In this document: positions 557 to 21,501 of the stretch, piece by piece
How positions within the stretch are numbered: the stretch's first letter is position 1
How the letters are laid out: the number at the start of each line of letters is the position of its first letter
Origin: Candidatus Borkfalkia excrementavium
GTDB taxonomy: Bacteria; Bacillota; Clostridia; Christensenellales; Borkfalkiaceae
Direction of reading: 5' to 3'
Length of the DNA stretch: 32,385 bases
Assembly: GCA_019115945.1 (NCBI GenBank)
Contig: DXCO01000031.1
Location: forward strand, 1-32,385
Notes under the pieces: model-generated
What the model was told of the DNA's origin: nothing
The model's database searches: none
Seen by the model: the letters and a program-made list of their open reading frames with translations, nothing else
Program-made: the position numbers and the translations under genes

Positions 557-922
557 TCAATTTTCACCGATCAGATATTCTTTGCATACGTTGCCGTTGA
601 CGACGTGATCAGCGATGACTTTTCTCGCTTTTTCAGGCGTCATAAGGACATACGTATATTTCTGCCCGTCTCTGAACACTTCCACGATGGGTTCGAGCCT
701 GCAAAGCCCGATGCAACCCGTCTGCGAAATGCTCACGTTGTGCAACTGCCTCTTTTCCGCCTCGTCGAGAAGCGCGGTGAGCACGGGACGCGCGCCCGCT
801 GCGATGCCGCAGGTCGCCATGCCGACTTTGATCACCGTTTCGTCCGAACCCGCGACCGCCCTGTTGTCCGTTTGGGATCTCATCTTTTCCCTGAGCGCTT
901 TGAGTTCTTCCAAACTTTTCAT
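557..922 (-). CDS. [2Fe-2S] ferredoxin-like (thioredoxin-fold) protein of the hydrogenase operon
   Basis: A 121-residue protein of the thioredoxin-like [2Fe-2S] ferredoxin family commonly encoded between hydC and hydB in Clostridia. Cys38 (MATCGIAAGA), Cys70 and Cys74 (TGCIGLC) are visible; the usual fourth ligand position is not a Cys, and Cys113 near the C-terminus is the only other cysteine. This pattern seems typical of the subfamily rather than a defect. The start ATG overlaps the stop of the HATPase gene as ATGA, indicating translational coupling. hydB begins about 20 nt downstream. It probably carries electrons within, or accompanies, the hydrogenase complex; its exact role is not established by the sequence. 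Confidence 0.85.
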   Translation of the reverse strand: MKSLEELKALREKMRSQTDNRAVAGSDETVIKVGMATCGIAAGARPVLTALLDEAEKRQLHNVSISQTGCIGLCRLEPIVEVFRDGQKYTYVLMTPEKARKVIADHVVNGNVCKEYLIGEN

Positions 923-1470
923 AACCTACCTCCGTATATGCTGACTAAATTTTCTTGGATATATTCTCTCAGAAAAGCCCGTACCTCCGGTTCCCTGAAG
1001 GAGACGTCACCCAAAATTCCGCGCACTTCGCGCGTATCGAGCGCGCCGACGCGCCCGCTGCTTTCCACTGAAATGTAAAAATCCACGCCTTCGTTCATCG
1101 TGATCAGTTGCAGGATCACGCCGCCGAAATCGCCGAGCGGCATTCTGTCCACATGGCTGATGCAGTACGTTGCCGTGACTGTTGTGCCCTTCCCCTTTTC
1201 CGATGCGATAAAAAACGTGCCGCCCGCGCTCTCTGCCGAATATTTGAACAGAGGAACCCCCATGCCGACGGGGCGCGTCGTGCGCGATGTCGTGAAGGGA
1301 TCCGTCACGCGGGCGAGGGTATCCTCATCCATGCCGCAGCCGTCGTCTTTGATCGCAATGCGCATCTCGTCCTTTTCAAAATCGACGAAAAGCGCGATCT
1401 CGATCAGTTTTGCGCCGGCGGCCAGAGAATTTTCCGCAATGTCGAGAATGTTGAGCGCAAGTTCGCGCAT
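919..1470 (-). CDS. HATPase_c ATP-binding protein of hydrogenase operon (RsbW/histidine-kinase-like)
   Basis: A 183-residue protein with a GHKL ATPase fold. The N-box is near Glu13/Asn14 (AENSLAAGA), the G1 box is DDGCGM at 42-47, and the G2 box is GMGVPLFK at 69-76. No sensor or dimerisation/phospho-acceptor His domain precedes it, so it is not a full histidine kinase. The last ~80 residues are a separate region rich in charged residues that I do not recognise. It begins 3 nt after the hydC stop and overlaps the next gene by 4 nt (ATGA), so it is co-translated with hydrogenase subunits. Stand-alone HATPases of this type are frequent in hydABC operons. A regulatory (kinase or anti-sigma-like) role is an inference. 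Confidence 0.82.
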   Translation of the reverse strand: MRELALNILDIAENSLAAGAKLIEIALFVDFEKDEMRIAIKDDGCGMDEDTLARVTDPFTTSRTTRPVGMGVPLFKYSAESAGGTFFIASEKGKGTTVTATYCISHVDRMPLGDFGGVILQLITMNEGVDFYISVESSGRVGALDTREVRGILGDVSFREPEVRAFLREYIQENLVSIYGGRL

Positions 1471-1473
1471 AGT

Positions 1474-1977
1474 TTAATTACCGTATTTGGCGAGAATGGA
1501 CTCCACCTCGTCGGGAGTGACTTTCCCGTACACGTCGTCGTTGACGGTGAGCACGGGCGCAAGCCCGCAACAGCCGATGCAGCGCGTGGCGTCCAGCGAA
1601 AATTTCAGATCGTCGGTGCACTGCCCGCCCTCGATATGCAGGGTCTCGCACACCTTTTTGTATACGTCTCCCGAGCCCTTTACGTAGCAAGCGGTGCCCA
1701 GGCAGACGCCGATCTTGTACTGCCCCTTGGGATACAGCGAAAACTGCGCGTAAAAGGTGGCCACGGCATACACCTCCGCCAAAGAGACGCCCAACGCATC
1801 CGCAATCATCTGCTGCACGGCTTCGGGAAGGTAGCCGTAGATCTCCTGCGCCTTCTGCAACGCGGCAATCATCAACCCCTTATCTCCGTGCTCTTTTTTA
1901 AGATTTTCCAGTTCTTTTTTCAGCCGTTCTTCCTGTTCCTTGGTGCCGTTGAAAGGAACGTCGATCTTTTTAGCCAA
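1474..1977 (-). CDS. hydC: HydC / NuoE-like [2Fe-2S] subunit of [FeFe]-hydrogenase
   Basis: A 167-residue NuoE-family protein. The start is probably TTG at 1977, because GGAGG (1986-1990) lies 8 nt upstream; an in-frame ATG at 1995 overlaps that ribosome site and is unlikely. An N-terminal helical region (about 1-80, with QEIYGYLPEAVQ) is followed by the thioredoxin-fold [2Fe-2S] domain with Cys92-x4-Cys97 and Cys133-x3-Cys137. In HydABC complexes it is the gamma subunit, relaying electrons between the HydB flavin and HydA. It is the first gene of the operon, transcribed from the promoter at 2045-2073 and divergent from citrate synthase. It could belong to a formate dehydrogenase or complex I, but the companion HATPase and ferredoxin-like genes favour hydrogenase. 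Confidence 0.88.
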   Translation of the reverse strand: MAKKIDVPFNGTKEQEERLKKELENLKKEHGDKGLMIAALQKAQEIYGYLPEAVQQMIADALGVSLAEVYAVATFYAQFSLYPKGQYKIGVCLGTACYVKGSGDVYKKVCETLHIEGGQCTDDLKFSLDATRCIGCCGLAPVLTVNDDVYGKVTPDEVESILAKYGN

Positions 1978-2044
1978 GATAATAACCTCCAACATAAATT
2001 ACGGCGGTGAACGTATCGCCGCCCCCAAAAATTCCGATAAATAT

Positions 2045-2237: not shown

Positions 2238-3635
2238 ATGAATTATTCAGAACTCCGCGACCATCTGCTGACCAATCTGTCGAAATACGCGCAGGACATC
2301 ATGGAAATGACAAAAATGGCGCAAAAGAGCGACATCATCAACCCCAAACTTTACGAAAAATACGACGTAAAGAGGGGATTGCGCGATATCAACGGCAACG
2401 GCGTCGTATGCGGTCTGACGGAAATTTCGGAGATCGTTGCGTTCGGAAAAGACGCGGACGGGAACAAGATCCCCGCAGACGGGCAACTTTACTACCGCGG
2501 CATCGACATCCGCGAACTCGTCAAAGGCGAACAGGGCAGGCGCTTCGATTTCGAGGAAGCGACCTATCTGCTTTTGTTCGGGCATCTGCCGACGAAGAGC
2601 CAGTTGGAAAGATTCTGCGAGATCCTTGCCGATTTCCGTACCCTTCCACCCTCATTCGTGCGGGATATCATTATGAAAGCCCCTTCGCGCGATATGATGA
2701 ACATGCTCGCGCGGTGCGTCCTTTCCCTCTATTCGTACGATCCCAAACCCGACGACGTATCCAAGAAAAACGTACTGCGCCAGTCTCTGCAACTCATCGC
2801 GCAGTTCCCCCTGCTCACCGTATACAGCCAGAAGGCTTATCAGTACTATCATTCGGACGCTTCCCTGTTCATACATAAGCCGAGAAAGGAACTTTCCACC
2901 GCGGAAAATATCCTGCATATCCTGCGGGAAGACAGCAAGTATACAGAACTCGAAGCGGAGGTTCTGGATCTTTGCCTCGTTCTGCACGCGGAGCACGGCG
3001 GCGGCAACAACTCTACGTTCACCACGCACGTCGTGACGTCTTCCGGAACGGACACGTATTCGTCGGTGGCGGCGTCGCTCGGTTCTCTGAAGGGGCCCAA
3101 GCACGGGGGCGCGAACATCAAAGTATGCGAAATGTTCGACAATATCAAGGCGCACGTGCCCGATTACGACAGGGGCAAACTCAAAGATTATATCGCAAAG
3201 ATCCTCGACAGAGAGGCCTATGACCGCTCGGGGCTCGTGTACGGCATGGGGCACGCGGTCTACTCTCTTTCCGATCCCCGCGCGGACATTCTCAAATCTT
3301 TCGCGGAAAAACTTGCCGTCGAAAAACATATGGAAAAGGAATACGAAATGCGCACTGCGGTCGCCGAGATCGCTGCGGAACTGATCGCGGAAAAGAGGAA
3401 AATTTATAAAGGCGTCAGCCCCAACGTGGACTTTTTCTCCGGATTCGTGTACGACATGCTCAACCTGCCCCGCGAACTGTACACGCCCTTCTTTGCGGTT
3501 TCGCGCATTGCGGGCTGGTCTGCCCACCGCATGGAAGAGATCACCAACGGGGGAAAAATCATCCGCCCCGGTTATCAGGCGGTTGCGCCCCGCAGAAAAT
3601 ACGTGCCCATCGAAGAGCGCACGGAAGAAGAATGA
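2238..3635 (+). CDS. gltA: Citrate synthase (citrate/2-methylcitrate synthase family)
   Basis: A 465-residue citrate synthase that condenses oxaloacetate with acetyl-CoA. The ATG follows AGGAGG (2224-2229) at 8 nt. The catalytic triad can be read directly: His289 in GPKHGGAN, His339 in GMGHAVY and Asp398 in SPNVDFFSG. The motif LHAEHGGGNNSTF (249-261) is also typical. The protein is slightly longer than the ~370-430 residues of many bacterial enzymes, with an N-terminal extension of about 40 residues. It is a single-gene unit with its own promoter and a strong terminator. In an anaerobe it likely feeds 2-oxoglutarate and glutamate synthesis. A Re-type citrate synthase is excluded because that enzyme is unrelated in sequence. 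Methylcitrate synthase activity cannot be ruled out. Confidence 0.95.
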   Translation: MNYSELRDHLLTNLSKYAQDIMEMTKMAQKSDIINPKLYEKYDVKRGLRDINGNGVVCGLTEISEIVAFGKDADGNKIPADGQLYYRGIDIRELVKGEQGRRFDFEEATYLLLFGHLPTKSQLERFCEILADFRTLPPSFVRDIIMKAPSRDMMNMLARCVLSLYSYDPKPDDVSKKNVLRQSLQLIAQFPLLTVYSQKAYQYYHSDASLFIHKPRKELSTAENILHILREDSKYTELEAEVLDLCLVLHAEHGGGNNSTFTTHVVTSSGTDTYSSVAASLGSLKGPKHGGANIKVCEMFDNIKAHVPDYDRGKLKDYIAKILDREAYDRSGLVYGMGHAVYSLSDPRADILKSFAEKLAVEKHMEKEYEMRTAVAEIAAELIAEKRKIYKGVSPNVDFFSGFVYDMLNLPRELYTPFFAVSRIAGWSAHRMEEITNGGKIIRPGYQAVAPRRKYVPIEERTEEE

Positions 3636-7711: not shown

Positions 7712-8404
7712 TCAGCGGCGTCCGCACAACTTTTTGAGCGCTTCGAACACGCCGTGCGCGCTGCACGTTTCCGCATCGATAAAATGTTCCGCTTCGGATA
7801 TATCCCAAAGATAATGCGCGTCCGAATCGGTGATCTGGGGCAGTTCCACCCCCGAATCGAGGGTACATTCCACCATTTCAAATCCAAGCCCGTAATCGAA
7901 TCCTCCCAAAATGCCGACGAGAGAATTGGATTGCTTGTCGATATGCGCGGGCACCGCGATGCCGCCGAAAGACTTCACGAGAGGCGCGGCCTCTTCGACG
8001 CTCACGCCCGAACTGACGATGAGAAGGTTTTCCTCCTCGCCGACGATCTCGTCTTGCTCGTTCATGATCAGTTGCCTGCCGAAGATCTCCGGCCTGTTGC
8101 GGATCTTCATGCGGGTGTTCTGTATATGTTTTTCCAATTTTTCAAGATCCTCATATCTTTCGAAAAGGCAGAGGATGTGGATATCTTCGCTGGTGGTCAG
8201 TTCCATGGCAGGCAGAACGACCAGCCCGTTTCTTTTGCCCGCCGCGATCGCCGCAGGGCAGTTTTTGCCCGTGTTGTGATCGGAGAGCGCGATGACGTTC
8301 AGCCCCTTGATGAGCGCCATATTGACAATGTTGTTCGGCGTATTGTCCTCGTCTCCGCAGGGGCTGAGGCAGGAATGAATATGAAAATCGTAATACAGTT
8401 TCAT
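7712..8404 (-). CDS. PHP-domain metal-dependent phosphoesterase of the hydrogenase-linked operon
   Basis: A 230-residue PHP domain protein. Metal ligands are visible in order: His8/His10 (DFHIHS), Asp18, Asp42/His43 (SDHNTGKN), Glu68, His76, His154 (VPAHID), and Asp195/His197 (DSDAHY). These motifs suggest a trinuclear metal site hydrolysing a phosphoester, but the substrate is unknown. A GGGAGG site precedes the ATG. It is the last gene of the five-gene operon 7712-10844, 55 nt after the second DRTGG gene. PHP proteins next to DRTGG and hydrogenase-like genes are a recurring arrangement in Clostridia, as far as I recall. A small nucleotide or second messenger is a plausible but unproven substrate. 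Confidence 0.87.
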   Translation of the reverse strand: MKLYYDFHIHSCLSPCGDEDNTPNNIVNMALIKGLNVIALSDHNTGKNCPAAIAAGKRNGLVVLPAMELTTSEDIHILCLFERYEDLEKLEKHIQNTRMKIRNRPEIFGRQLIMNEQDEIVGEEENLLIVSSGVSVEEAAPLVKSFGGIAVPAHIDKQSNSLVGILGGFDYGLGFEMVECTLDSGVELPQITDSDAHYLWDISEAEHFIDAETCSAHGVFEALKKLCGRR

Positions 8405-8459
8405 ACGACCTCCCGAACGGGCGAGAAAACTTTTTGCCGCGACAAAGGGGATGGCCCCG

Positions 8460-8789
8460 TCAGATCCCGCACAGAGCGGAAACTTCCTTTGCCGTCAAAA
8501 ACACATCTTTCGCCGAGCCCAATACCCACAGGCCCTGCATCTTCGCGCGCTCAAAAAGCGGTCCGTCCGGTTCCGTTCCCTCGCAGAGGATGATGCAGGC
8601 GCAGTCGATGAGCACCGCCACCGCCGCGACGTTCACGTTGTTCATGACCGTAAGCCAGGCACAGTTTTCGGGTGCGCGCGAGATGATGTTGCTCAAAAAA
8701 TCGCCGCAGTAGCCGTTTTCGATCTCGCGGTCCTCCCCCTCGCAGAAGACGCGGTACCCTGCCCTGTTCACCAATTCGGAAACTTTCAT
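8460..8789 (-). CDS. DRTGG-domain protein (second copy in operon)
   Basis: A 109-residue single-domain protein of the DRTGG family, known as a small regulatory domain often paired with CBS or phosphotransacetylase modules. The start ATG at 8789 overlaps the stop of the hydrogenase-like gene as ATGA, which decides the start although the frame is open further upstream. It resembles the 112-residue protein at the head of the operon over its whole length: start MKxxELV, a cysteine-containing turn near residue 28, LT in the middle, and a hydrophobic ACIILCEG strand. The two are therefore diverged paralogues. The ligand is unknown. Its coupling to the Fe-S protein suggests the two proteins act together. 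Confidence 0.78.
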   Translation of the reverse strand: MKVSELVNRAGYRVFCEGEDREIENGYCGDFLSNIISRAPENCAWLTVMNNVNVAAVAVLIDCACIILCEGTEPDGPLFERAKMQGLWVLGSAKDVFLTAKEVSALCGI

Positions 8790-10027
8790 TTGCCCCTTTC
8801 CTCCCTCAGTTTCACGCAGTCCGGTTTGCCGCCGTTGATGACAAGATCTTCCGCATAGCAGCGGCAGGTCGGGGCGCCGCATGCGCCGCAATCGATCCCG
8901 GGAAGTTGTTTCAGATATTCCTCGACCTGCACCATCTTGCGCATGGCGACAAACATATCTTCGTCAAGCCGGAAAGAGGTGGAAGGTTCGGGCGCCTTGT
9001 CCCAGAGGAAAAAACTTTCGTCCAGCCCGTATTCTTCCATGGTGGCGGGCTTCGTTTTCATTTTTTCGGCAAGTTGCCGCATGCGGTTGCGCGCGATGAA
9101 CGGGTTTTCCACGTTCAACACCCCGCCGACACAGCCGCCCGGGCACATATTGAGTTCCACAAAATCCGCACTTTCCAGTTTACCGTCGCTCATTTCCGTC
9201 AAAAGGCCGAGCACATTCCGCACCCCCGAGCAATGAATGTAATTGCCCAGGCCGAGAGAGTTGCTCTCTCCGCCGGAGGAGCCCCAGCCGATGCCGAAGT
9301 GCCCGCACTTGCCCAAACGGCGCGGATTTTTTATTTTATTCATCTTTTCCACGAGGCGGAAATAAATGTCGCTCTGCGAAAGCACGCCCGATATGTATTT
9401 TTGGTTGGAGACCTCCTCCCTGTGCAGAGAATACACCTTTGCCGGACAGGGAGAGATAAAAAACACGCCGATGTCGTCCGCAGGGATCCCCGCCTCGATC
9501 GCCCGCATTTTTGCGATCTTCGCCGCCACTTTCGCAGGGGCGTAAACGGGCAGCATATGGTCGGCCAGTTCATGGAATTTGAGAAGGATCAGTTCTGCGA
9601 CCGCAGGACATGCCGTGCTGATGACGGGGTGAGGCAGATTGCCCTTCTGCATAAGTTTTTTCGTGCAGTCCGTGACGAGTTCCGCCGCCAGCCCCACCTC
9701 GAGCACGTCGTCGAACCCCAGCGCCAACAGCCCCTCTATGACGTAGTTCGGGTCGTCCAGATTGTTGAACTGGCCGAACAGCGAAGGAGACGGCAGCGCG
9801 ATCTTGTAGGCATAACTTTCCACGAGGTCGAAACTGTCGTAAACGGGGCGTTTGGCGCCCCCTTTGCAACTTCTGACGCATTCTCCGCAGTTGATGCACT
9901 TATCGTATATAATTTTCGCTTTGCCGTTGACGATGCGAATGGCCTCCGTCGGGCACCTGCGCATGCAGGTGATGCAGCCGATGCATTTTTCGCTCTCTAA
10001 AACGACGGTCTTCAGCGTTTTGTCCAT
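8786..10027 (-). CDS. [FeFe]-hydrogenase-like Fe-S protein with sensory-type H-cluster site
   Basis: A 413-residue protein. The N-terminus is a 2x[4Fe-4S] ferredoxin domain (Cys15, 18, 21, 25 and 44, 47, 50, 54). An [FeFe]-hydrogenase large-subunit-like domain follows: L1 STACP (Cys140, Ala139), L2 SPCPAK (Cys194), a GSSGGE turn (249-254) and L3 ELNMCPGGCVGG (Cys295, Cys299). The C-terminus is an extra [4Fe-4S] domain, IDCGACGAPTC (378-388). All four H-cluster ligand cysteines are present, but the proton-relay Cys of catalytic enzymes is Ala and the L2 Met is Ser. This matches known sensory (HydS-like, group C/D) hydrogenases. The ATG at 10027 is chosen because GAGG lies 6 nt upstream. It is likely a cytoplasmic H2 or redox sensor; net H2 turnover is unlikely. 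Confidence 0.85.
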   Translation of the reverse strand: MDKTLKTVVLESEKCIGCITCMRRCPTEAIRIVNGKAKIIYDKCINCGECVRSCKGGAKRPVYDSFDLVESYAYKIALPSPSLFGQFNNLDDPNYVIEGLLALGFDDVLEVGLAAELVTDCTKKLMQKGNLPHPVISTACPAVAELILLKFHELADHMLPVYAPAKVAAKIAKMRAIEAGIPADDIGVFFISPCPAKVYSLHREEVSNQKYISGVLSQSDIYFRLVEKMNKIKNPRRLGKCGHFGIGWGSSGGESNSLGLGNYIHCSGVRNVLGLLTEMSDGKLESADFVELNMCPGGCVGGVLNVENPFIARNRMRQLAEKMKTKPATMEEYGLDESFFLWDKAPEPSTSFRLDEDMFVAMRKMVQVEEYLKQLPGIDCGACGAPTCRCYAEDLVINGGKPDCVKLREERGK

Positions 10028-10084
10028 AAGACACCTCAAAATCCGTGCCGCGCAGCGCCGAAAAACGGTGCGGGCGGCCCCTTA

Positions 10085-10504
10085 TCAAAAATTCACGCGC
10101 AGATAGACGGTCGTTCCCACGCCGACCGTCGAATCGATCTTCATTTCGTCGCTGTACTTTTTCATATTGGGAAGCCCCATCCCCGCGCCGAATCCGAGAC
10201 TTCGTATGTTTTCGGACGCCGTGGAATATCCTTCCTTCATGGCAAGTTCAATGTTTTCGATCCCCGGCCCCCTATCTTTCAGCCAGATCTCGGCACGGTC
10301 GGGCCAAATTTCCACTTCTGCCCGTCCGCCGTGCGCGTGGATGACCATGTTGATCTCCCCTTCGTACATCGCGATCGCGACGCGCCGGACGGAAGCGGCG
10401 GGCACGCCGATCTGTTTGAGCGTGCGTTTCACGCGCTCGCTCGCGTTTCCCGCAGAAGAAAAATTTTCTCCGTCCACTTCAAATTCAAGTCTGATACAAT
10501 CCAT
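10085..10504 (-). CDS. RsbW/SpoIIAB-like anti-sigma-type ATPase
   Basis: A 139-residue stand-alone HATPase of the serine-kinase/anti-sigma family. The N-box includes Glu48, Glu50 and Asn52 (YEGEINMVIHA), the G1 box is DRGPGI (77-82), and the G2 box is GFGAGMGLPNMKKY (104-117). The start ATG at 10504 lies 1 nt after the stop of the first DRTGG gene. An upstream open frame has no ribosome site. Members of this family bind sigma factors or phosphorylate STAS antagonists, but no sigma or STAS gene is present in the window. In this operon it is placed before the sensory hydrogenase-like gene, so it may be the output component. Confidence 0.83.
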   Translation of the reverse strand: MDCIRLEFEVDGENFSSAGNASERVKRTLKQIGVPAASVRRVAIAMYEGEINMVIHAHGGRAEVEIWPDRAEIWLKDRGPGIENIELAMKEGYSTASENIRSLGFGAGMGLPNMKKYSDEMKIDSTVGVGTTVYLRVNF

Positions 10505-10505
10505 G

Positions 10506-10844
10506 TCAGCCGCCCAGCCCGTTCGTATACAGGATGCCGCAGGCCACGAACAGTCTTTTTTCCGTGGAGAGAAGCACGATCCCCTTTTCCTTTGCAAGTT
10601 CTATAACGGCAGATTCGGGACGCTTGCCCCGCACGAACACGATGCACAGCATATCCATCATTTCCGCCGTGCGCACGACCTGCGGATTCAAAAGTCCCGT
10701 CAAAAGAACGGACTGATCTTTGACGTAGGCCAACACGTCGCTCATCATGTCTGAACCGCAGGCGGTATGGATCTCGGTGTCCAGATGTTCTTCGCCGCAG
10801 AGGATCTCCGCGTCGAGCAATTTGACCACTTCTCTGATTTTCAT
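10506..10844 (-). CDS. DRTGG-domain protein (first gene of sensory operon)
   Basis: A 112-residue DRTGG-family protein. The ATG at 10844 follows GGAG at about 7 nt. The frame extends far upstream without ribosome sites and across the promoter, so the short form is right. Visible features are an N-terminal MKIREVVKLLDAEIL helix, an ACGSDMMSDVLAY turn (29-41), SVLLTGLLN, and IVFVRGKRP. It is first in the operon with a well-formed extended -10 promoter. A weak similarity to the 109-residue DRTGG protein four genes later suggests duplication. The family is usually treated as a ligand-binding regulatory domain, but its ligand is unknown. Confidence 0.8.
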   Translation of the reverse strand: MKIREVVKLLDAEILCGEEHLDTEIHTACGSDMMSDVLAYVKDQSVLLTGLLNPQVVRTAEMMDMLCIVFVRGKRPESAVIELAKEKGIVLLSTEKRLFVACGILYTNGLGG

Positions 10845-10877: not shown

Positions 10878-10906
10878 ATCATACCACAAATCCGCGCATA
10901 TTTCAA
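10878..10906 (-). promoter_or_regulatory. Promoter of the DRTGG/hydrogenase-like/PHP operon
   Basis: On the minus strand, TTGAAA (10901-10906) and TATGAT (10878-10883) are separated by 17 bp, with a TGG extension before the -10. It lies about 33 nt before the first start codon. Confidence 0.78.
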
Positions 10907-10990: not shown

Positions 10991-11016
10991 AAAAAAAGAA
11001 AGGGCCGCAGCCCTTT
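10991..11016 (-). terminator. Intrinsic terminator of the ArsP_2 exporter gene
   Basis: AAAGGGC (10999-11005) pairs with GCCCTTT (11010-11016) with a CGCA loop. On the minus strand it is followed by CTTTTTTTG. It lies 15 nt after the stop codon. Confidence 0.85.
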
Positions 11017-11030
11017 CGCATATTTTTTAT

Positions 11031-21472: not shown

Positions 21473-21501
21473 ATTATATAATTTTGCCTGCGCGTTGTCA
21501 A
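21473..21501 (-). promoter_or_regulatory. Consensus promoter of metK
   Basis: On the minus strand, TTGACA (21496-21501) and TATAAT (21473-21478) are separated by 17 bp. This is a perfect sigma-A consensus, close to the divergent promoter of the next gene. Confidence 0.93.

Follow-up and report, generated by a model that had tools for sequence, protein, structure and literature searches.

The group D (M2e) [FeFe]-hydrogenases have been studied as putative H2 sensors, and a paper of 2026 regards the identification of their interaction partners as critical (PMC13104023). In the passages of that paper available to us, TamHydS of Thermoanaerobacter mathranii is the sole characterised group D enzyme, with partners unknown; its secondary structure was found to change upon H2 and photoreduction, and its C-terminal cluster was not reduced by H2. 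The group D features listed in excerpts of PMC8163306 are the lost proton-transfer cysteine, the substitution of M353 by Ser/Thr, a C-terminal Cys motif and the absence of a PAS domain. In C. thermocellum, two bifurcating hydrogenases have phosphatases, kinases and PAS sensors encoded upstream (excerpts of PMC3492117). DRTGG and hydrogenase were found together in one paper of the literature searched, and the DRTGG protein there concerns growth on lactate. In our study, we analysed an operon of Candidatus Borkfalkia excrementavium that encodes a putative group D-type hydrogenase homologue (HydS), two DRTGG proteins (DRTGG1 and DRTGG2), a kinase-like ATPase (HATP) and a PHP-family protein. The window, which is the whole stretch of DNA analysed (32,385 nucleotides), is an entire contig (DXCO01000031.1; G000:C25) of a 1.55 Mb draft genome that is ~90% complete.

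These five genes, together with a second ATPase gene (HATP2) of the hydC operon, may form an undescribed switch for the control of hydrogen metabolism, which is widespread in Clostridia and usually lies near the H2-producing enzyme. A HydS plus kinase beside HydABC is already in print, whereas the whole six-gene set was not found in the literature searched, which was covered in part; parts of it may stand in Calusinska et al. 2010 (M2e class).

Gene order and its recurrence

The earlier note on this DNA had placed DRTGG, anti-sigma-type ATPase, H-cluster protein, DRTGG and PHP genes in one operon, and all five open reading frames (ORFs) were present in that order between 10844 and 7712 of the minus strand:

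10506..10844, minus strand: DRTGG1, first gene, 112 amino acids (Pfam DRTGG, 1.5e-9)
10085..10504, minus strand: HATP, SpoIIAB/RsbW-type kinase-like HATPase, 139 amino acids (Pfam HATPase_c_2, 9.5e-10)
8786..10027 (ATG start taken), minus strand: HydS, 413 amino acids (Fe_hyd_lg_C, 3.9e-26; Fer4 repeats; C-terminal FeS)
8460..8789, minus strand: DRTGG2, 109 amino acids (Pfam DRTGG, 3.6e-5)
7712..8404, minus strand: PHP-family protein, 230 amino acids (Pfam PHP, 2.4e-6)

The coupled starts described in that note were seen again on re-reading the junctions. The stop codon of DRTGG1 is followed by one base and the ATG of HATP, and HydS and DRTGG2 overlap by ATGA; the gaps between HATP and HydS and between DRTGG2 and PHP are 57 and 55 bases, respectively.

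The recurrence of this order was studied in 141 loci (numbered L; genomes are numbered G), comprising 80 loci of close relatives (the best matches listed), 60 loci of a wide sample and the window. They were searched with iterated profiles that had been seeded from the same loci. The wide sample held about one locus per family, with 53 loci from a sample of the phylum and 7 from genomes of the same order. At least 1.5 kb upstream and at least 2 kb downstream of HydS were available in 112 of the 141 loci; the other 29 were too short and were dropped. The gaps between genes in this survey are rough, the earliest start codon having been taken, and many negative values are artefacts.

DRTGG1-HATP-HydS-DRTGG2-PHP was found in this order and on one strand in 95 of the 112 loci, including 61 of the 62 loci of close relatives; the 112th locus is the window. 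All five genes were present in 17 of the 18 loci of the same genus, the window included; in the remaining one (L021), the missing PHP gene would lie past the contig end. Chance or a local oddity was ruled out by these two counts. Recurring co-occurrence of the gene set had been named beforehand as a test, and it was found both in the 95/112 loci and in whole genomes, where HATP accompanied HydS in 155 of 157. HydC was present in the same locus in 88 of the 112 loci, and the commonest layout was DRTGG1-HATP-HydS-DRTGG2-PHP-HydC-HATP2-Trx-HydB-HydA. In some lineages HydC comes first and the module lies inside the hydrogenase operon (e.g., L065, L105, L115, L124, and L190); elsewhere HydABC is divergent from the module (e.g., L067, L083, and L109).

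One draft genome labelled Spirochaetaceae (L133) contained HATP-HydS, with HATP2 3 kb away and no match to DRTGG or PHP; a transfer or a binning error is possible.

Natural fusions

Neighbouring members were found to be fused in several genomes. DRTGG1 and HATP formed a single ORF in 10 genomes, which belong to two families (L153, L157, and L218-L225), HATP was fused with HydS in 2 genomes of one family (L175/L226 and L183/L227), HydS with DRTGG2 in 2 genomes of one family (L150 and L228), PHP with HATP2 in 5 genomes of one family (L184/L229 and L230-L233), and HATP2 with Trx in 1 genome (L178). Few independent fusions are involved, with a minimum of one for each type. Judged from the gene structures, the fusions jointly make a chain of putative contacts among neighbours.

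The hydrogenase-like protein HydS

By the published feature list, HydS is assigned to the group D (M2e)-type [FeFe]-hydrogenase homologues, as a putative H2 sensor. In an alignment of 21 HydS sequences (A1), the cysteines of the two N-terminal [4Fe-4S] sites (C15/18/21/25/44/47/50/54) and of the H-cluster (C140/C194/C295/C299) were invariant, and the C-terminal four-Cys site (C380, C383, C388, and C404) was conserved. The proton-transfer Cys (C299 of CpI) is replaced by Ala (STACP) in the window HydS, and Cys was found at this position in 0/21 sequences. The position of CpI M353 is Ser (SPC), two residues before the second H-cluster Cys; it was Ser/Thr in 20/21 sequences and Ala in L026. The spacing expected for group D is Cx2Cx4Cx16C, and the final spacing in the window HydS is 15, not 16. 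No PAS domain was found in the window HydS by the Pfam scan. Asp379-Cys380, Asp403-Cys404, Lys36, and Lys59 of the window HydS agree with the residues that the available passages of PMC13104023 describe as conserved for TamHydS. The 48 PDB sequences that matched HydS at 1e-10 included none named as a sensory hydrogenase.

In L195, L204, and L224, HydS was divided between two ORFs, with the break at a different position in each and the rest of the module intact; the breaks may be true gene splits or frameshifts. The window genome encodes five H-cluster proteins, two of which lie ~3 kb apart on contig C34.

HATP and the DRTGG proteins

The best NCBIfam model for HATP was SpoIIAB (2e-14, under the cut-off of the model). 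The N-box Glu and Asn were kept in 134 of 135 aligned HATP sequences, and the remaining one had a gap. In SpoIIAB/RsbW-type kinases the N-box Glu is catalytic; the lid of HATP presumably resembles that of RsbT.

SpoIIAB and RsbW are the nearest named relatives of HATP, which raises a classical anti-sigma or partner-switch explanation: HATP would hold a sigma factor encoded elsewhere and free it when HydS sees H2, changing the expression of hydABC. Excerpts of PMC3492117 raise the possibility of transcriptional control by the kinases, phosphatases and PAS sensors encoded upstream of bifurcating hydrogenases, which fits this explanation, as does the presence of a Rex gene in the stretch around 16 of the 161 loci. 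However, HATP reached only 53.7 bits on TIGR01925, whose cut-off is 135, and also fell below the cut-offs of the RsbW models. In unsupervised clustering of the genes up to 9 kb from HydS, which a small regulator could escape owing to the choice of ORFs, no other gene family was present in more than 17 of the 141 loci. Three families occurred in at least 10 of the 141 loci, and by reading they resemble FolC, an ABC ATPase and a SPOR-domain protein. A recurring sigma or STAS family was not seen within 9 kb in the 141 loci by this clustering, no sigma or STAS model having been run. We consider the anti-sigma explanation distinctly improbable.

Two further candidates were rejected. No dedicated DNA-binding partner was seen to recur in this clustering, and the AraC gene reported next to TamHydS is not generally found beside the module. 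A search of the window for a Rex-type operator gave a single match with 3 mismatches at 21495, where 0.85 are expected by chance, away from the operon.

The predicted model of DRTGG1 (mean predicted local distance difference test, pLDDT, 94.6) has a DRTGG/HprK-N-like fold with a helix at 34-40 and Ser35 at its start. Foldseek with this model returned 2ioj (9.1e-7), and the DRTGG part of the CBS-pyrophosphatase and HPr kinase also matched. DRTGG2 scored 24.0 bits against a Pfam cut-off of 25.2, and the profiles of DRTGG1 and DRTGG2 matched at 99.6%. The Ser of the D-[LM]-[LM]-S motif was kept in 125/125 aligned DRTGG1 sequences, and that of DRTGG2 in 135/135. STAS proteins carry a phosphoserine similarly placed at a helix start, and SpoIIAB phosphorylates its STAS partner. 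Phosphorylation of the DRTGG proteins is suggested by analogy, as a tentative proposal; we know of no reported DRTGG phosphoserine.

The PHP-family protein

The metal-ligand positions of the PHP protein (His/Asp/Glu set) were kept in 121 to 126 of 126 sequences, and the remainder were gaps; the metal-binding residues are those of the family. The predicted model had a pLDDT of 96.3, and its nearest folds in Foldseek were EndoQ, 3o0f, and RNase AM; 2yb1, solved with AMP, was also among the structural relatives.

These relatives (EndoQ, RNase AM, and 2yb1 with AMP) act on nucleic acids or nucleotides, so the PHP protein could make or break a nucleotide signal that is the real output and is sensed by DRTGG or CBS domains; this signal would correspond to the small phosphorylated compound that the earlier note had proposed. 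Consistent with such sensing, the CBS domains of a C. perfringens pyrophosphatase bind Ap4A (excerpts of PMC13039410), and a CBS-pyrophosphatase responds to AMP, ADP, ATP, and diadenosine polyphosphates (excerpts of PMC11172384). However, the PHP gene was missing in three loci that kept DRTGG1-HATP-HydS-DRTGG2 (L171, L174, and L177), and therefore a signal made by PHP cannot be the sole output. This explanation, which can overlap with the one we prefer, is unlikely.

An LSPC motif was found directly after the HxH of the PHP protein, and its Cys was present in 126/126 sequences (alignment A5); this Cys may be redox-sensitive or metal-binding. A second PHP gene was found ~0.7 kb upstream of DRTGG1 in L117 and L134.

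HATP2 and the link with HydABC

Near the beginning of the window, the following genes of the hydC operon were found:

1474..1995, minus strand: HydC, NuoE-like (Pfam, 8.5e-50)
919..1470, minus strand: HATP2, second HATPase, within the hydC operon (Pfam HATPase_c, 4.7e-14)
557..922, minus strand: Trx-like [2Fe-2S]-type small protein (Pfam 7.7e-5, just under the cut-off; NCBIfam 3.1e-9, under the cut-off)

A second Trx-like match follows the 557-922 protein, is cut by the contig end and is probably the start of HydB. The earlier statement that the window carries a HydABC-type operon therefore holds for HydC and the probable start of HydB and fails for HydA, which lies outside; the window contains only part of the operon. 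A citrate-synthase-like ORF (by reading of the sequence) on the plus strand at 2238-3635 separates the two operons, and so they are not one transcript here. Two further features precede the five-gene operon:

10878..10906, minus strand: promoter-like site preceding DRTGG1, 10/12, with TG before the second hexamer (consensus match only)
10998..11017, minus strand: terminator-like stem that separates the operon from the gene before it (consensus match only; shuffles give about as many)

Co-occurrence was examined in 398 genomes of the phylum with thresholds of E<=1e-60 for HydS, E<=1e-25 for HATP and E<=1e-100 for A6-type HydA. HydS was found in 157 genomes and HATP in 169, with both in 155, HydS alone in 2 and HATP alone in 14. 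A6-type HydA was present in 289 genomes, including 146 of the 157 with HydS. The Fisher p values, which ignore relatedness, were 8e-91 for HydS with HATP and 7e-15 for HydS with HydA.

The exceptions include contig ends, split genes and variant modules. Of the two HydS-only genomes, one is G196, and in the other, G349, the HydS gene lies where a contig ends (L156). Among the 14 HATP-only genomes, HydS is split into two ORFs in G031 and G121 and runs off the contig in G308; HATP lies at the contig end, on the side where HydS would lie, in G266, and only part of HATP, at the contig start, is present in G358, which is of the same genus as G039, G189, and G336. The rest are CBS variants (G120, G147, G180, and G351) or reduced modules (G039, G189, G336, G066, and G370).

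HATP2 was found in 30/30 genomes with HydS and in 2/30 genomes with HydA that lacked HydS and HATP, both sets having been picked by hand from lists. HATP2 as an ordinary part of HydABC was ruled out by this comparison. By its distribution among genomes, HATP2 is regarded as the sixth member of the module and goes with it. In 77 of the 141 loci, those with at least 8 kb on either side, HATP2 and HydC were both present in 62, neither in 13 and one only in 1 each. As HATP2 sits in the hydC operon, the module is tied to HydABC even where the operons lie apart.

Variants without HydS

A second set of 20 loci (L195-L214) comprised HATP-only genomes, second copies of HATP and some other HATP loci. 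HydS was absent from 13 of them; of the remaining 7, two have a split HydS (L195 and L204), L196 ends inside HydS, and L198, L200, L212, and L214 have HydS. A tandem CBS pair was found ahead of HATP in 8 of the 13 HydS-less loci (L197, L199, L201, L205-L208, and L213) and was confirmed by Pfam on 3 of the 8 (L206, L208, and L213). The step from the H-cluster protein to the ATPase, which the earlier note had inferred, gains support from these CBS pairs and from the HATP-HydS fusions of 2 genomes, and we regard it as likely that HydS feeds the ATPase.

The variants were also found to have other neighbours. L198, L200, L205, and L207 continue directly into Trx and RnfC, and in L213 RnfC lies 4 kb further. 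RnfC also directly follows the module in three loci with HydS (L180, L182, and L185). In L197, L199, and L208, the gene immediately upstream of DRTGG1 encodes Rex; the last of these loci has HydABC without HydS. In L201, an EtfA with a ferredoxin domain and an FAD-linked dehydrogenase are encoded 4 to 7 kb past HATP2, a neighbourhood that may be coincidental. Only DRTGG1-CBS-HATP of the module is retained in L205 and L207, only DRTGG1-HATP in L202/L203, and DRTGG1-HATP-DRTGG2-HATP2 in L209-L211, where HydC lies ~4 to 6 kb to one side and Rex some kb on the opposite side, with RnfC also there in L210 and L211. Across the 161 loci of both sets, up to ~7 kb away, RnfC was present in the stretch in 15 and Rex in 16; L185 and L200 are one and the same place. 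The names Rnf, Rex, and Etf were given by Pfam for some members and by profiles seeded from such members for others.

In the L202/L203 stretch, DRTGG1-HATP was found with Rex, cytochrome-like, Nfn-like (by reading), and Rnf genes, as if in one redox regulon. A FolC-like gene was found in one stretch with the module in 14 of the 20 loci of the second set, in which HydS-less variants are frequent, and in 10 of the 141 loci of the first set.

The neighbours also bear on the explanation that the module assembles or repairs enzymes, the ATPases being chaperones and the DRTGG proteins and HydS, with a structural role, scaffolds that build HydABC or Rnf. The operon position by HydABC, the ATPase folds and the lack of a recurring transcription factor among the clustered neighbours fit this explanation, and so does the C-terminal cluster of TamHydS, which is not reduced by H2 (excerpts of PMC13104023). 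Against it, 143 of the 289 genomes with A6-type HydA lack HydS, and HATP2 is missing from 28 of the 30 such genomes that were checked, so that HydABC is made without them. In addition, the CBS domains on HATP suggest the sensing of a ligand, and some copies of the module adjoin genes for Rnf, which has no H-cluster. Assembly or repair is, in our estimate, rather improbable as the function.

Proposed function

The comparison of loci and genomes gives the membership and linkage of the module, the fusions, the exchange of sensors and neighbours, and the conserved active-site residues. With moderate confidence, we interpret the six proteins as a redox-control module that would act on ferredoxin/NAD-linked energy complexes, chiefly the electron-bifurcating HydABC. 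HydS would read H2, or the redox state set by H2; H2 is proposed as the signal because of the published behaviour of one group D enzyme, TamHydS. HydS would then alter the state of HATP, the serine-kinase-like ATPase of the SpoIIAB/RsbW kind, which would have the DRTGG proteins as its substrates or binding partners; in the simplest case, it would phosphorylate their invariant serine where the helix starts. The PHP protein would be the eraser, which takes off the mark or a linked phosphoester, though this role is doubtful. HATP2, made from the hydABC operon, and the Trx-like protein would form the arm reaching HydABC or Rnf, and HATP2 would pass the state on to HydABC, where the enzyme is a more probable point of action than the promoter. 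In other genomes, the CBS domains would replace or supplement HydS, and Rnf would replace HydABC. We infer H2 as the signal, the phosphorylation, the role of PHP and the form of the output.

HydABC, named as the natural target by the earlier note, is probably the main target here, as HATP2 of the hydC operon tracks the module (30/30 versus 2/30). It is probably not the only one, since some copies of the module adjoin Rnf genes.

Several observations weigh against the proposed redox-control module. Only 33 of the 49 loci of the wide sample were complete, although L150, L153, and L157 were scored incomplete merely through fusions, and a further genome of the same genus (G001) had no full match to HydS. 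PHP was absent in L142, L171, L174, L177, L202, L203, L205, L207, and L209-L211. The exchange of sensors is not strict: 5 of the 13 HydS-less loci (L202, L203, and L209-L211) have no CBS on HATP, and CBS and HydS occur together in L147, L198, L185/L200 (one place), and L144 (a weaker CBS match). In these four loci HATP bears CBS although HydS is present, and CBS can therefore supplement HydS. Besides the 143/289 genomes with A6-type HydA and no HydS, 11 of the 157 HydS genomes had no A6 match at 1e-100 (4 of the 11 belong to the 30 genomes with HATP2), two genomes with HydA carry HATP2 without HydS or HATP, and the co-occurrence tests ignore phylogeny. Phosphorylation, a response to H2 and an effect on HydABC lie beyond what sequence can show.

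A broader and more speculative claim, which we hold to be doubtful, is that of a new class of bacterial redox switch. In such a switch, a SpoIIAB/RsbT-like kinase would have paired DRTGG proteins, in place of STAS proteins, as its phospho-acceptors, the sensors would be interchangeable (H2-reading HydS or adenine-nucleotide-reading CBS), and the activity or direction of electron-bifurcating HydABC and of Rnf would be set directly.

The survey supplies five candidate partners that usually accompany the group D HydS, and the natural fusions are ready constructs for testing. If the proposed module is true, it would explain how many fermenting Clostridia, including gut species, match the handling of H2 and NADH to conditions, and it would bear on fermentation yields and gut H2 exchange.

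Comparison with known systems

TamHydS and the window HydS share the domain plan, the lost proton-transfer Cys, the Ser/Thr near the [2Fe] site, the C-terminal four-Cys site and the lack of PAS, a likeness drawn from the features described in excerpts of PMC8163306 and PMC13104023. For one strain, these papers mention an ATPase in the flank and an AraC gene, whereas the passages available do not contain the set of DRTGG1, DRTGG2, PHP, and HATP2. The hydrogenase domain of group C HydS is likewise thought to be an H2 sensor (T. maritima, PMC10055695; R. albus, per PMC11837493; both in part), but group C HydS carries a PAS domain, whereas the window HydS has none and its candidate partners are encoded by separate genes.

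HATP shares the ATP-binding motifs and the N-box Glu and Asn with the partner-switch kinases SpoIIAB, RsbW, and RsbT. These kinases have a STAS partner, whereas no STAS or sigma family recurred around HATP in the clustering, and DRTGG proteins occupy the place expected for STAS. The fold of DRTGG1 is common to the DRTGG domain of the CBS-pyrophosphatase and the N-domain of HPr kinase; unlike these, the DRTGG proteins of the module are stand-alone, paired, and contain the D-[LM]-[LM]-S motif. Similarly, the PHP fold and the metal-ligand positions are common to the window PHP and the PHP enzymes RNase AM and EndoQ, whereas the window PHP is a protein of 230 amino acids, bound to its operon, with an invariant LSPC motif and an identity of 15-19% in the structural matches.

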